Source: Blautia sp.
GTDB lineage: Bacteria; Bacillota; Clostridia; Lachnospirales; Lachnospiraceae
Direction of reading: 5' to 3'
NCBI GenBank assembly: GCA_017463155.1
Contig: JAFTPT010000027.1
Span: 1 to 64,000 of the forward strand
Length of the DNA: 64,000 bases
In this document: positions 37,696 through 46,242 of the stretch, piece after piece
How positions within the stretch are numbered: position 1 is the first letter of the stretch
Layout: each line of letters begins with the position of its first letter
The notes under the pieces: generated by a model
Database searches by the model: none
What the model was told of the DNA's origin: nothing
Seen by the model: only the letters and a program-made list of their open reading frames with translations
Translations under genes and position numbers: made by a program

Positions 37696-37748
37696 AAGGC
37701 AAAGGCGTCTTGGACATATGTCCAGGGCGCTGTTTTTTTTGTTTTTTT
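37696..37748 (+). promoter_or_regulatory. ANTAR-type hairpin overlapping terminator, asnB leader
   Basis: Five pairs (37696-37700 AAGGC with 37707-37711 GTCTT) close the hexaloop AAAGGC at 37701-37706, which has the A1 and G4 required by ANTAR proteins. It overlaps a terminator whose stem is 37705-37717 with 37718-37730 (13 pairs, including G-U), followed by a long T-tract to 37748. The two structures exclude each other. asnB starts 14 bases after the T-tract. Only one hexaloop is clear; the usual partner hairpin is not evident. Confidence 0.75.
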
Positions 37749-37761
37749 ACGGAGGTACAGT

Positions 37762-39414
37762 ATGTGCTCGATTTTCGGTTACTGCGGAAGCAAAAGCGAT
37801 TTTGAGACGATCCGTAAAGCGCTCCGCCGGACCCATTCCCGGGGACCCGACGACAGCAGGATCGTCCGTACGGACGGCGGCTGGCTGGGCTTTAACCGGC
37901 TGTCCATCATGGGCCTGACGGAGGGCGGCATGCAGCCCTTCGTATTCCGAAACCCGGGCACGGTACCGTACAGTGACATGCAGGAGACAGAGGAAGGCTT
38001 TGCAGCGCCTGCTGACAGCGACATTATCCTGGTCTGCAACGGCGAGATCTACGGATTCCGTCCACGGAAGGAGGAGCTGATCCAAAAGGGGTACCGCTTC
38101 ATCAGTGATTCGGACTGCGAGATCCTGCCGGCTCTCTACCGGGAGCACGGGACCGACATGTTCCGCATGTTGGACGCGGAATTTGCCCTGGTCCTCTATG
38201 ACAGGAAGGCAGGCTCCTGGATCGCGGCCCGGGACCCCATCGGGATCCGGCCTTTGTATTACGGGATCTGCGAGGACGGAACCTATGTGTTTGCCTCGGA
38301 ACCGAAGAACCTGACCGGCCTTGTTAAGGAGATCCGGCCGTTCCCGCCGGGACATTACTTTAAGGACGGAGCGTTCGTTCAGTACCGGGATATGTCCGAC
38401 GTGCAGGCCTGCAGCTATGATGATCCGGAGACGGTAGACCGGAAGATCCATGATCTTCTGATCGAAGGAGTCAAAAAAAGGCTCGACTCCGACACGCCGG
38501 TCGGCTTTCTCCTGTCGGGAGGACTAGATTCCTCGCTGGTCTGCGGGATCGCGGCGTCGCTGTCCGACAAGCCCCTGGAGACCTGGGCGATCGGGATGGA
38601 CATCGACGCGATCGATCTCAAATATGCCAGGACGGTGGCGGATTACATCCACTCCAATCACCACGAAGTGATCATCACCCGGCAGGATGTGATCGAGGCG
38701 CTGGAGACTGTGGTCGAGGTGCTGGGCACCTACGACATCACGACGATCCGCGCGTCCATCGGCATGTATCTGGTCTGCAAGGCGATCCACGAGCAGTCGG
38801 ATATCCGCGTGATCATGACCGGTGAGATCTCGGACGAGATCTTCGGATACAAATATACAGACTTTGCACCATCCGCGGAGGCCTTCCAGAAGGAAGCCGA
38901 AAAGCGGATCCGCGAGATCCACATGTACGATGTGCTCCGCGCGGACCGGTGCATCAGCGCGAACTCATTGGAAGCGCGCGTGCCCTTCGGGGATCTGGAT
39001 TTTGTGGAATACTGCATGTCCATCGATCCGGAGAAAAAACTGAACCGATATGGAAAGGGCAAATATCTGCTCCGGCATGCCTTTGAGAAGGACGCCTTGA
39101 TCCCGGAGAGCATTCTCTGGAGAGAGAAGGCCGCCTTCTCCGACGCAGTCGGACACTCTCTGAAGGACGACCTGGCGGAATACGCGGATCAGACATACAC
39201 GGACGAGACATACATAGAAGGGATCCGCAGGTATGATCACGCCAGGCCGTTCACCAAAGAATCACTGCTGTACAGAGATCTTTTTGAAAAATACTACCCG
39301 GGACAGTCCAGGATGGTCGATGATTTCTGGATGCCCAACAGGAACTGGGAGGGCTGCGATGTGACCGATCCCTCCGCGAGAGTACTGGCAAACTACGGCG
39401 ACAGTGGTAAATGA
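37762..39414 (+). CDS. asnB: glutamine-hydrolysing asparagine synthetase B
   Basis: 550 aa. The ATG at 37762, after GGAGG, gives the required MCSIFG start, where Cys 2 is the glutaminase nucleophile after Met removal. The N-terminal glutaminase domain has HSRGPDD and CNGEIYGF. The synthetase domain has the ATP pyrophosphatase loop [10 protein letters not shown] near 255. It makes asparagine from aspartate using glutamine nitrogen and ATP. The gene is controlled by the hairpin/terminator leader directly upstream. The GSIII gene follows 13 bases later, so the glutamine consumer and producer share a transcript. Confidence 0.93.
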
Positions 39415-39427
39415 AAGGAGCGCAGCT

Positions 39428-41527
39428 ATGGAAAGACAGAACATACCGGAATTATTCGGCTCAATGGTGTTTGACGACCGTGTCATGAGAGCACGTCTCT
39501 CGGCCGAGGTCTACAACTCCCTCCGGAAGACCATCGATGAGAACGCGAAGCTGGATGTCACGGTGGCCGAGGCGGTCGCCCAGGAGATGCGGGACTGGGC
39601 CGTGGAGCGCGGCGCTACGCATTTCACCCACTGGTTCCAGCCGCTGACCGGCGTGACGGCCGAGAAGCACGACAGCTTTATCACGCCCTCCCCGGACGGA
39701 GGCGTGATCATGGAATTCTCCGGCAAGGAGCTGATCAAGGGCGAGCCGGACGCGTCATCCTTCCCGTCGGGCGGGCTTCGTGCCACATTTGAGGCGAGAG
39801 GCTACACGGCCTGGGACCCGACCTCCTACGCCTTTATCAAGGATCACACACTGTGTATTCCCACGGCTTTCTGTTCCTATTCCGGGGACGCCCTGGACAA
39901 GAAGACCCCGCTGCTCCGCTCCATGCAGGCATTGGACCGGCAGGCCAGAAGGATACTACGGCTGTTCGGCAAGGAGGTCAAATATGTCAGGACATCTGTG
40001 GGACCGGAGCAGGAGTATTTCCTGATCGACAAGGAGATGTTTGAAAAAAGGCCGGACCTGGTCTACACCGGACGGACGCTGTTCGGGGCCATGCCGCCCA
40101 AAGGACAGGAGCTGGACGACCATTACTTTGGCGTGATCAAGCCAAGGGTGACGACCTTCATGGAAGACCTGAACAATGAGCTCTGGAAGCTCGGCATCCT
40201 GGCCAAGACGGAGCACAATGAGGTAGCCCCCGCGCAGCACGAGCTGGCGCCGATCTTCTCCACCACAAACGTGGCGACGGACAACAACCAGCTGATGATG
40301 GAGGTCATGCAGAAGGTGGCAAGGAAGCACGGTATGGTCTGTCTGCTCCATGAAAAGCCCTTTGCGGGCGTCAACGGCTCCGGCAAGCACAACAACTGGT
40401 CCATGGCGACCGATACAGGTGTGAACCTGCTCTCCCCGGGCGATACGCCCTACGAGAATGCGCAGTTCCTTCTGTTCCTGTGCGCGGTGATCCAGGCCGT
40501 GGACGATTACCAGGATCTGCTCAGGCTTTCCGTGGCGACAGCCGGAAATGATCACAGGCTCGGAGCCAACGAGGCGCCGCCGGCGATCATCTCGGTCTTC
40601 CTGGGGGATGAATTGACCGCCATCCTGGACGCCATCAAGACGGATTCGCCCTATCAGGGGACGGAGAAGGTGATCATGAAGCTGGGCGTGTATTCCCTGC
40701 CAAGGTTCTCCAGGGATACGACGGACCGGAACCGGACCTCCCCCTTCGCTTTTACGGGAAACAAATTCGAATTCCGTTCCCTGGGGTCCTCCAACAGCAT
40801 CGCCTGCTGCAACATCATGCTGAACGCGGCGGTGGCGGAGAGCCTCCGGCAGTATGCGGACCGGCTCGAAAAGGCAGAAGATTTTGAAGCAGAGCTCCAT
40901 GCGCTGATCAAGGAGACGATCATGGCCCACGAGCGGATCCTCTTTAACGGCAACGGCTACGGTGAGGAATGGGTAAAGGAAGCCACCGAGGTGCGGGGGC
41001 TTTCCAACCTGAAGACCACCGCGGACGCCATGCCGCATCTGCTGGATCCGAAGAACAAGGAGATGCTGAAGGCGCACAAGGTCTTTACGGAGACAGAGCT
41101 TCATTCCAGATGTGAGATCATGCTGGAAAACTACTGCAAGACCGTCAACATCGAAGGCCATACCATGGTGGACATGGTCCGCAAGAACTATCTGCCGGCC
41201 ATCGAGGGGTATCTTTACAGCCTGGCAAAGGCAACAGCCACGATGAAGGCCGTGAGCGACCGGGTGAAATGCAACTATGAGATCTCCACGATGGAGAGGC
41301 TTTCGGAGCTGACAGACCATATCCTGGAGAGGACCGAAGCCCTGGAGGAAGCGCTCGCGTCGCTTGGGGAATGCGGGGACATCATCGGCACCTCCGAGGC
41401 GATCCGGGACAGCGTCCTGCCCAGGATGGAGGAACTCCGGAAATTCGTCGACGAGGCGGAAATGCTCACATCCGAGAAATGCTGGCCCTTCCCGAGCTAC
41501 GGAAAGCTCCTGTTCAGCGTGTACTAA
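39428..41527 (+). CDS. glnN: glutamine synthetase type III
   Basis: 699 aa, the usual GSIII length and much longer than GSI. Typical blocks are visible: [60 protein letters not shown] and [16 protein letters not shown]. It condenses ammonium and glutamate to glutamine with ATP. AAAGGAG lies before the ATG. It probably depends on readthrough of the asnB leader terminator, since no promoter separates the two genes. The next gene is an ammonium transporter. Confidence 0.95.
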
Positions 41528-41594
41528 GCGGAACAGAGGGAAGGACAATCCTATACGGTCCCGATCAAGGGGCATCCTATCATCATACACGGAG

Positions 41595-46109: not shown

Positions 46110-46110
46110 A
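46073..46110 (+). repeat. 19-bp tandem duplication at gene 3' end
   Basis: GCTGGCGGTAACGATTGAA is present twice in perfect tandem at 46073-46091 and 46092-46110. Because 19 is not a multiple of three, the second copy shifts the frame and ends the PEP-binding protein with AGGND. With one copy the protein would have read on to EEAS and stopped at a TGA only a few codons later. The change is small and looks recent. Confidence 0.9.
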
Positions 46111-46118
46111 GAAGCCTC

Positions 46119-46147
46119 TTGATTTTTGTCATGGTTTGCAGTATACT
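46119..46147 (+). promoter_or_regulatory. promoter of the gltB operon
   Basis: TTGATT (46119-46124), a 17-base spacer and TATACT (46142-46147). The start would be near 46154, giving about 45 bases of RNA before the ANTAR-type hairpin. That segment is itself complementary in places, e.g. TCTGC with GCAGA around TGTG near 46176-46190, but no second A..G hexaloop is clear. Confidence 0.6.
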
Positions 46148-46198
46148 TATCTGAAATATAAAGACAATACTGCAGATCTGCTGTGGCAGAGATCAAAA

Positions 46199-46242
46199 GA
46201 GGCAAAGGCGCTTCGGGTTTACGGGACCCGAAGCGCCTTTTT
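46199..46242 (+). promoter_or_regulatory. ANTAR-type hairpin overlapping terminator, gltB leader
   Basis: GAGGC (46199-46203) pairs with GCTTC (46210-46214, one G-U) around the hexaloop AAAGGC at 46204-46209. The terminator stem is 46204-46218 with 46226-46240, 15 perfect pairs followed by T residues, and it shares its whole 5' side with the hairpin. The gltB ATG is 22 bases downstream. This is the clearest of the three leaders. Confidence 0.8.

Follow-up and report, generated by a model that had tools for sequence, protein, structure and literature searches.

The window analysed here is a 64,000-nucleotide (nt) stretch of a Blautia sp. genome (contig JAFTPT010000027.1, positions 1 to 64,000). 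It carries an island of nitrogen genes in which the leaders of asnB, of an ammonium-transporter gene (amt) and of gltB each hold a short hairpin with the hexaloop AAAGGC that overlaps or competes with a terminator-like hairpin, and in which one gene encodes a protein with an ANTAR domain (Table 1). Additional window genes identified by Pfam encode a SIS/glutamine-amidotransferase protein, pyrG, carA, carB and an oxidoreductase fitting gltD. The genes are tightly packed from gltB through the ANTAR gene, and a scan of the plus strand from 50500 to 62450 gave a single terminator-like site, within carB, together with several promoter-like sites, among them 60172-60201 just 5' of glnA. Because of this packing and the lone terminator-like site, the ANTAR gene may lie in an operon opened by its own target, or it may be served by an internal promoter. 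It is the sole PF03861 match in its genome, which is 92% complete.

Table 1 Predicted leader elements and Pfam-identified genes of the window
Feature	Coordinates	Strand	Remark
Predicted asnB promoter, TTGACA-17-TAAAAT	37657..37685	+	-10 box end 10 nt 5' of hairpin stem
asnB antiterminator-type hairpin P2	37696..37711	+	loop AAAGGC 37701-37706; 5 bp; R1 51.5 bits
asnB intrinsic terminator	37701..37742	+	reuses P2 loop and 3' arm; T tract from about 37732
asnB (asparagine synthase)	37762..39414	+	Pfam; first gene behind first leader
Glutamine synthetase III (GSIII)	39404..41527	+	Pfam; overlaps asnB end
amt terminator-like hairpin	41600..41653	+	broken T tract; competes with P2; -19.5 kcal/mol, z -2.1
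amt hairpin P2, weak member	41604..41617	+	loop AAAGGC 41608-41613; 4 bp
Ammonium transporter fused to PII (amt)	41671..43443	+	Pfam
PPDK_N-domain protein	43497-46109		Pfam
Predicted gltB promoter, TTGATT-17-TATACT	46119..46147	+	-10 box end 51 nt 5' of stem
gltB antiterminator-type hairpin P2	46199..46214	+	loop AAAGGC 46204-46209; 5 bp; R1 49.2 bits
gltB intrinsic terminator	46204..46248	+	reuses P2 loop and 3' arm; T tract
gltB (glutamate synthase large subunit)	46264..50835	+	Pfam; opens close-packed run ending in ANTAR gene
glnA (type I glutamine synthetase)	60204..61478	+	Pfam; just 5' of ANTAR gene
ANTAR protein, 196 residues	61492..62082	+	PF03861

A first-pass annotation of the window had described the three C-G-closed hexaloops, a strong terminator sharing their bases in each leader, and an ANTAR gene in the same island. 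The ANTAR gene is there, and the loops are exact, each closed by C-G on stems of 5, 4 and 5 bp (asnB AAGGC[AAAGGC]GTCTT, amt CCAC[AAAGGC]GTGG and gltB GAGGC[AAAGGC]GCTTC). The terminator claim stands for asnB (-21.1 kcal/mol, z -5.5) and gltB (-29.0 kcal/mol, z -6.3; both stretches folded alone), where the loop and 3' arm are reused; it falls short for amt, where the terminator is weak and the best fold engulfs the entire hairpin. The amt leader was also missed by the terminator-overlap scanner and by the covariance model R1 (below) up to E 10. The octamer CAAAGGCG is by itself not unusual, with 188 copies in the genome versus 206 for a reversed control. Seven copies lie on the plus strand of the window; three have a stem of at least 4 bp and are exactly the three leaders, and the other four have the closing pair only. 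The predicted asnB promoter, its hairpin and its terminator are packed into about 86 bp. Rfam 15 gave no window match at its curated threshold, which rules out a known Rfam element as the identity of these leaders; asnB and gltB had only sub-threshold matches, to unrelated families.

The hairpin is widespread in relatives. We scanned the window and 80 loci around gltB, from Lachnospiraceae, from other bacteria with Clostridia, Eubacteriales or a genus of these in the title, and in a few cases from records titled only 'bacterium', for any hairpin of at least 4 bp overlapping a terminator, a criterion that preselects the stem and leaves the loop free. Among 187 hexaloop hairpins, 96 had A at the first and G at the fourth loop position (A1/G4), and the next loop class had 13; the commonest loops were AAAGGC (50), AAGGGC (13), AATGGC (9) and AAAGGT (7). 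Loops of 4, 5, 7 and 8 nt gave 107, 112, 109 and 167 sites, some of the last being hexaloop hairpins with the closing pair counted into the loop. Conversely, when loop and terminator were preselected and no 5' arm was demanded, which leaves the stem as an unselected check, 122 sites were obtained, 93 of them with a stem of at least 4 bp; shuffled arms predict only 2.8 and arms exchanged among sites 29.4. The loop-adjacent pair is C-G in 92 of these 93. In an alignment (alignment A1) of 64 of the 81 listed sequences, all preselected for the stem and with pair counts that lean towards structure, pairing reaches 95.6% in the hairpin, with 60 doubly changed cells, and 95.2% in the terminator, with 166; neither cell count was attained in any of 500 shuffles. 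Since the two covarying structures share bases, their joint conservation reads as the mark of a switch, and the conserved attenuator is almost certainly genuine. Covariation and loop conservation in relatives, which the first-pass annotation had named beforehand as a point on which its proposal would stand or fall, are thus both present. By eye, six gltB leaders (L052, L053, L059, L062, L067 and L075) have CGC[AAAGGA]GCG-like hairpins within the terminator, with 3 bp and a loop ending in A; these lie outside the 4-bp rule and perhaps form a further subtype.

Loops of this kind also occur in known ANTAR targets. The dual hairpin was defined as the ANTAR target by Ramesh and colleagues in 2012, with linkers of 3 or 14 nt harmful (PMC3369931), and the curated actinobacterial targets are dual, their linkers being 2-25 nt long (PMC8164766). 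The eut leaders of Enterococcus faecalis resemble ours in their A1/G4 hexaloop hairpin overlapping a terminator, and their regulators EutV/EutW in having an ANTAR protein with a receiver-like domain and coiled coil; they differ in having two hairpins 5-12 nt apart, both needed, whereas ours mostly have one, often at the RNA 5' end (PMC3369931, PMC8934654). The 2022 EutV structure shows one hexaloop, contacted by a dimer, as the minimal binding site; antitermination was held to need two hexaloops, used successively in time with polymerase, and single sites were foreseen where no polymerase sets the clock (PMC8934654). In vitro selection with Klebsiella NasR gave C:G closure with A1 and G4, and the nasF leader likewise serves nitrogen genes; unlike our system it has two hairpins for full affinity and a NIT sensor domain (PMC7496416). 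Nitrogen regulons have also been predicted: in Desulfotomaculum, genes for GOGAT, glutamine synthetase, PII and ammonium transporters lie behind ANTAR-type terminators; the search used a dual-hairpin model, whose design does not admit single hairpins (PMC3369931). Clostridial NitR, next to glnA, and Clo1313_2030 are mentioned as ANTAR/antiterminator genes tied to ammonia assimilation, and their RNA target is not described in the passages of PMC4676874. A Capp-Switch map of start sites exists for the Lachnospiraceae species Clostridium phytofermentans, made from libraries that excluded cDNA shorter than 200 bp (PMC5171806). In a literature survey done mostly by title and the start of the abstract, and covering few subscription journals, no paper was recognised as reporting a clostridial ANTAR antiterminator with a single hairpin.

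Next, we considered whether these leaders have one hairpin or two, that is, only the terminator-proximal P2 or also a recruitment hairpin P1. Two site sets were used. The first (94 sites) comprises the 93 stemmed sites above, 29 of the 122 having been dropped for stems under 4 bp, plus the window amt leader, added by hand. The second (85 sites) comes from an order-wide search with R1, a covariance model trained on alignment A1: 90 of 91 listed places (G128:C9:488722 left out), one of them present twice (L094, L123), make 91 rows, of which 85 have at least 4 bp at the modelled place. This set includes window asnB and gltB again and still counts L163 and L164, both probably false; L137, L141, L142, L160 and L171 were dropped for shorter stems, as was the plainly false L152. 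Promoters scoring at least 10, with the -10 box ending 5-13 nt ahead of the stem, are predicted for 43 of the 94 and 39 of the 85 sites (window asnB counted in both), versus 0.60 and 0.55 for shuffled upstream sequences. By gene, such promoters abut the hairpin in 23/24 GSIII, 4/4 asnB, 5/7 glnA, 4/14 amt, 3/20 gltB and 1/11 pyrG leaders of the first set, and in 11/13 amt, 11/26 GSIII, 5/6 glnA and 0/4 gltB leaders of the second. Transcription initiates some 5-9 nt after the -10 box, so the RNA would start at or just before the stem, and the spacing leaves no room for a second hairpin upstream. The earlier suggestion of one hairpin rather than two is strengthened by these promoters at nearly half of the sites.

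This bears on the chief alternative, that the leaders are canonical two-hairpin ANTAR targets whose P1 has diverged past recognition or lies at an unusual distance, with nothing mechanistically new. Upstream A1/G4 hairpins, and with them a clear two-hairpin form, do occur in a few leaders, namely five of gltB (L004, L009, L010, L013 and L030, 16-37 nt away) and the GSIII leaders L136, L158 and L176 (10-16 nt). In the two families to which these three belong, 8 of the 12 GSIII leaders show a hexaloop hairpin at a distance of 8-21 nt upstream, in five of them with a loop other than A1/G4, and other loop sizes occur there too. Downstream A1/G4 hairpins are in slight excess as well (12/94 versus 2-9 for controls). 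Overall, however, upstream A1/G4 hairpins are not enriched, with 9/94 versus 1-8 for seven control loop classes and 11/85 versus 1-14 in the second set, and a hidden upstream P1 was rejected since it does not rise above control loops. The three window leaders have no A1/G4 partner of at least 4 bp upstream, as the first-pass annotation had noted. Because the method found the two-hairpin forms of L136, L158 and L176, it is able to see P1, and we regard the canonical two-hairpin explanation as unlikely. Genome G079 has one ANTAR gene and both leader types, two-hairpin at GSIII and promoter-abutting at glnA, so one protein presumably reads both.

To the single-hairpin switch the ANTAR gene is tied by co-occurrence. 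PF03861 is present in 109 of 147 genomes of the order (ANTAR-positive) and an R1 match (E at most 0.01) in 60; R1 E-values are approximate, and the searched genomes may include training species. Matches occur in 59/109 ANTAR-positive versus 1/38 ANTAR-negative genomes (p 1.3e-9), and at E at most 0.001 in 37/109 versus 0/38. The sole ANTAR-negative match in the order (L164 in G040) has an A-T closure and no C-G-closed hairpin and is probably false, as is L163, the only match of ANTAR-positive G106, which has coding-like downstream sequence. Across 243 genomes of the class, which share at least 11 ANTAR-positive genomes with the order sample, the stricter cut gave 46/131 versus 2/112 (p 2e-12). 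Confounding by missing nitrogen genes or by ancestry was rejected: among the 109 GSIII-bearing genomes matches occur in 57/87 ANTAR-positive versus 1/22 ANTAR-negative, and permutation within seven mixed families (family numbers copied by hand) gave p 0.0001. At twelve sites of the order, an ANTAR domain is encoded no more than about 220 nt away.

The window protein consists of a receiver-like domain, a coiled coil and an ANTAR domain, and is an ANTAR protein by Pfam (57.1 bits versus a cut-off of 27.3). Its AlphaFold model (predicted local distance difference test 90.4, predicted template modelling score 0.72) has RNA-bound EutV, 6ww6, as the top Foldseek match (E 3.5e-12). By phmmer alignment with an inferred chain offset of 2, the EutV RNA contacts K149, E160 and M172 map to K154, E165 and M177, which are invariant in 45 of 45 aligned ANTAR rows (two of them, L118 and L196, from one genome). 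The phospho-acceptor column is Asn in the window protein and Asp in 9 of 45 rows, and the phospho-acceptor Asp with acidic pair of an EutV-type phosphorylated response regulator is absent. Our guess is that nitrogen is sensed via a ligand or a partner such as PII.

Taken together, the element has a short stem closing a six-nucleotide loop that carries A1 and G4, an overlap with an intrinsic terminator in the right orientation (weak for window amt) and an ANTAR gene in the same genome; two hairpins with a short linker appear only in a minority, such as L136, L158 and L176. We therefore treat it as a variant that behaves like an ANTAR target, not as a standard member. The ANTAR antitermination logic proposed at first pass finds support in the loop and C-G conservation, the covariation and the tracking of the ANTAR gene across genomes, and the leaders are most likely ANTAR-controlled, a judgement made with considerable confidence on sequence evidence. 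That a genuine switch is read instead by another RNA-binding protein or a ligand, with the ANTAR gene merely co-occurring, seems improbable: although about half of the ANTAR-positive genomes have no match and two recognition positions are unlike EutV, the loop rule and C:G closure are those of EutV and NasR, the co-occurrence persists in GSIII-bearing genomes and mixed families, twelve sites adjoin an ANTAR gene, and L136, L158 and L176 each have this P2 together with a canonical P1. It is hardly credible that the leaders are plain intrinsic terminators whose 5' arm happens to be A/GC-rich and whose upstream hairpin is due to chance; the arm test and the covariation refute this for the whole set, window amt excepted. 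Copies of CAAAGGCG are frequent in the genome and AAAGGC...GCCTTT would suit the base of a terminator, but the upstream arm, for which a terminator has no need, is paired at 93 of 122 sites and covaries.

Several points speak against single-hairpin control by the ANTAR protein. In published work, full binding requires both hairpins (PMC3369931), NasR binds a single hairpin at about 12 uM and takes two for full affinity (PMC7496416), and lengthening the linker by 20 nt abolishes EutV antitermination (PMC8934654). R1 matches are absent from 50/109 ANTAR-positive genomes of the order (E at most 0.01) and from 85/131 of the class at the stricter cut (E at most 0.001), and the two ANTAR-negative assemblies with a match in the class, G178 and G243, carry real-looking GSIII-type leaders. 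In the ANTAR rows the position of EutV Tyr164, which stacks on G4, is His in 42 of 45, and that of EutV Arg142 is not kept, being Leu in the window protein. Within the window, 6 of 200 shuffles are as stable as the amt fold, whose T tract is poorer and broken; only asnB is clearly 5'-terminal, gltB having 51 nt ahead of its hairpin, and the promoter scan found no nearby promoter for the amt leader, which lies between genes.

Weighing both sides, we think it probable that these leaders are attenuators antiterminated by the ANTAR protein through the single hairpin P2, an account for which we infer ANTAR binding, antitermination, a nitrogen signal and positive feedback. By default, the terminator would form in each leader. 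On binding to the A1/G4 hexaloop, the ANTAR protein would stabilise the short hairpin with its C-G closure, and the bound hairpin would sequester its loop and 3' arm, which are also the terminator 5' arm. With that arm locked in P2, the polymerase would read through into asnB-GSIII, amt and the gltB cluster. In contrast to the ANTAR targets described so far, the leaders would use the terminator-proximal P2 alone; in GSIII, asnB, glnA and many amt leaders this hairpin would be the first RNA structure, a few nt from the predicted start, with no recruitment hairpin P1. Positive feedback would arise because the ANTAR gene ends the gltB cluster.

The genes behind the element are largely of nitrogen metabolism. 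In the 94-site set they are GSIII (24), gltB (20), amt (14), pyrG (11), glnA (7), purF (4), asnB (4), gdhA (2) and glmS (1), with 7 unlabelled; leader labels, in this set and elsewhere, come from short peptide motifs, and Pfam was used for the window genes and ten further downstream genes. These ten include an NAD synthase, a PII protein, two ABC transporter ATPases, a periplasmic binding protein, a PucR-type regulator, an ATP-grasp protein and NifH, and two have no match; the NifH-family gene follows the element of L154 (G030:C3:12754-12810). In the window genome, a further strong site (L084, C13:3357-3407, R1 35.2 bits) precedes a short NAD-synthase-domain gene (Pfam) running into a purF-like start (by eye); weak matches there (L085-L090, E 0.6-8.6) were left out. 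Tandem complete hairpin-terminator units precede one gene in L002, L014, L017, L020, L021, L023, L033, L123 and L128, and L202 has three. The N-terminus of the window PPDK_N protein resembles those of the proteins encoded immediately after the element in L144, L156 and L203.

These nitrogen leaders of Lachnospiraceae and other Clostridia thus most likely represent a variant form of ANTAR antitermination, reduced to one hairpin at the 5' end. We lean, with some reserve, towards a wider picture for the class Clostridia, in which a one-hexaloop antiterminator at the transcript start, singly or in tandem, would precede many nitrogen genes and be recognised by an ANTAR protein that has no usual phosphorylation site in its receiver and has His in place of the G4-stacking Tyr, the recruitment hairpin being dispensable. 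Where the EutV paper holds that antitermination needs two hexaloops (PMC8934654), many natural leaders here apparently use one; in them the hairpin is transcribed first, with about 20-25 nt from hairpin to T tract, and the role of P1 becomes testable. The findings suggest that gut and rumen bacteria have a broad nitrogen regulon, spanning ammonium uptake, glutamine synthetase, GOGAT, asparagine synthetase, CTP synthase, PurF and one NifH-family gene, which would lie beyond what the two-hairpin search model was built to find.

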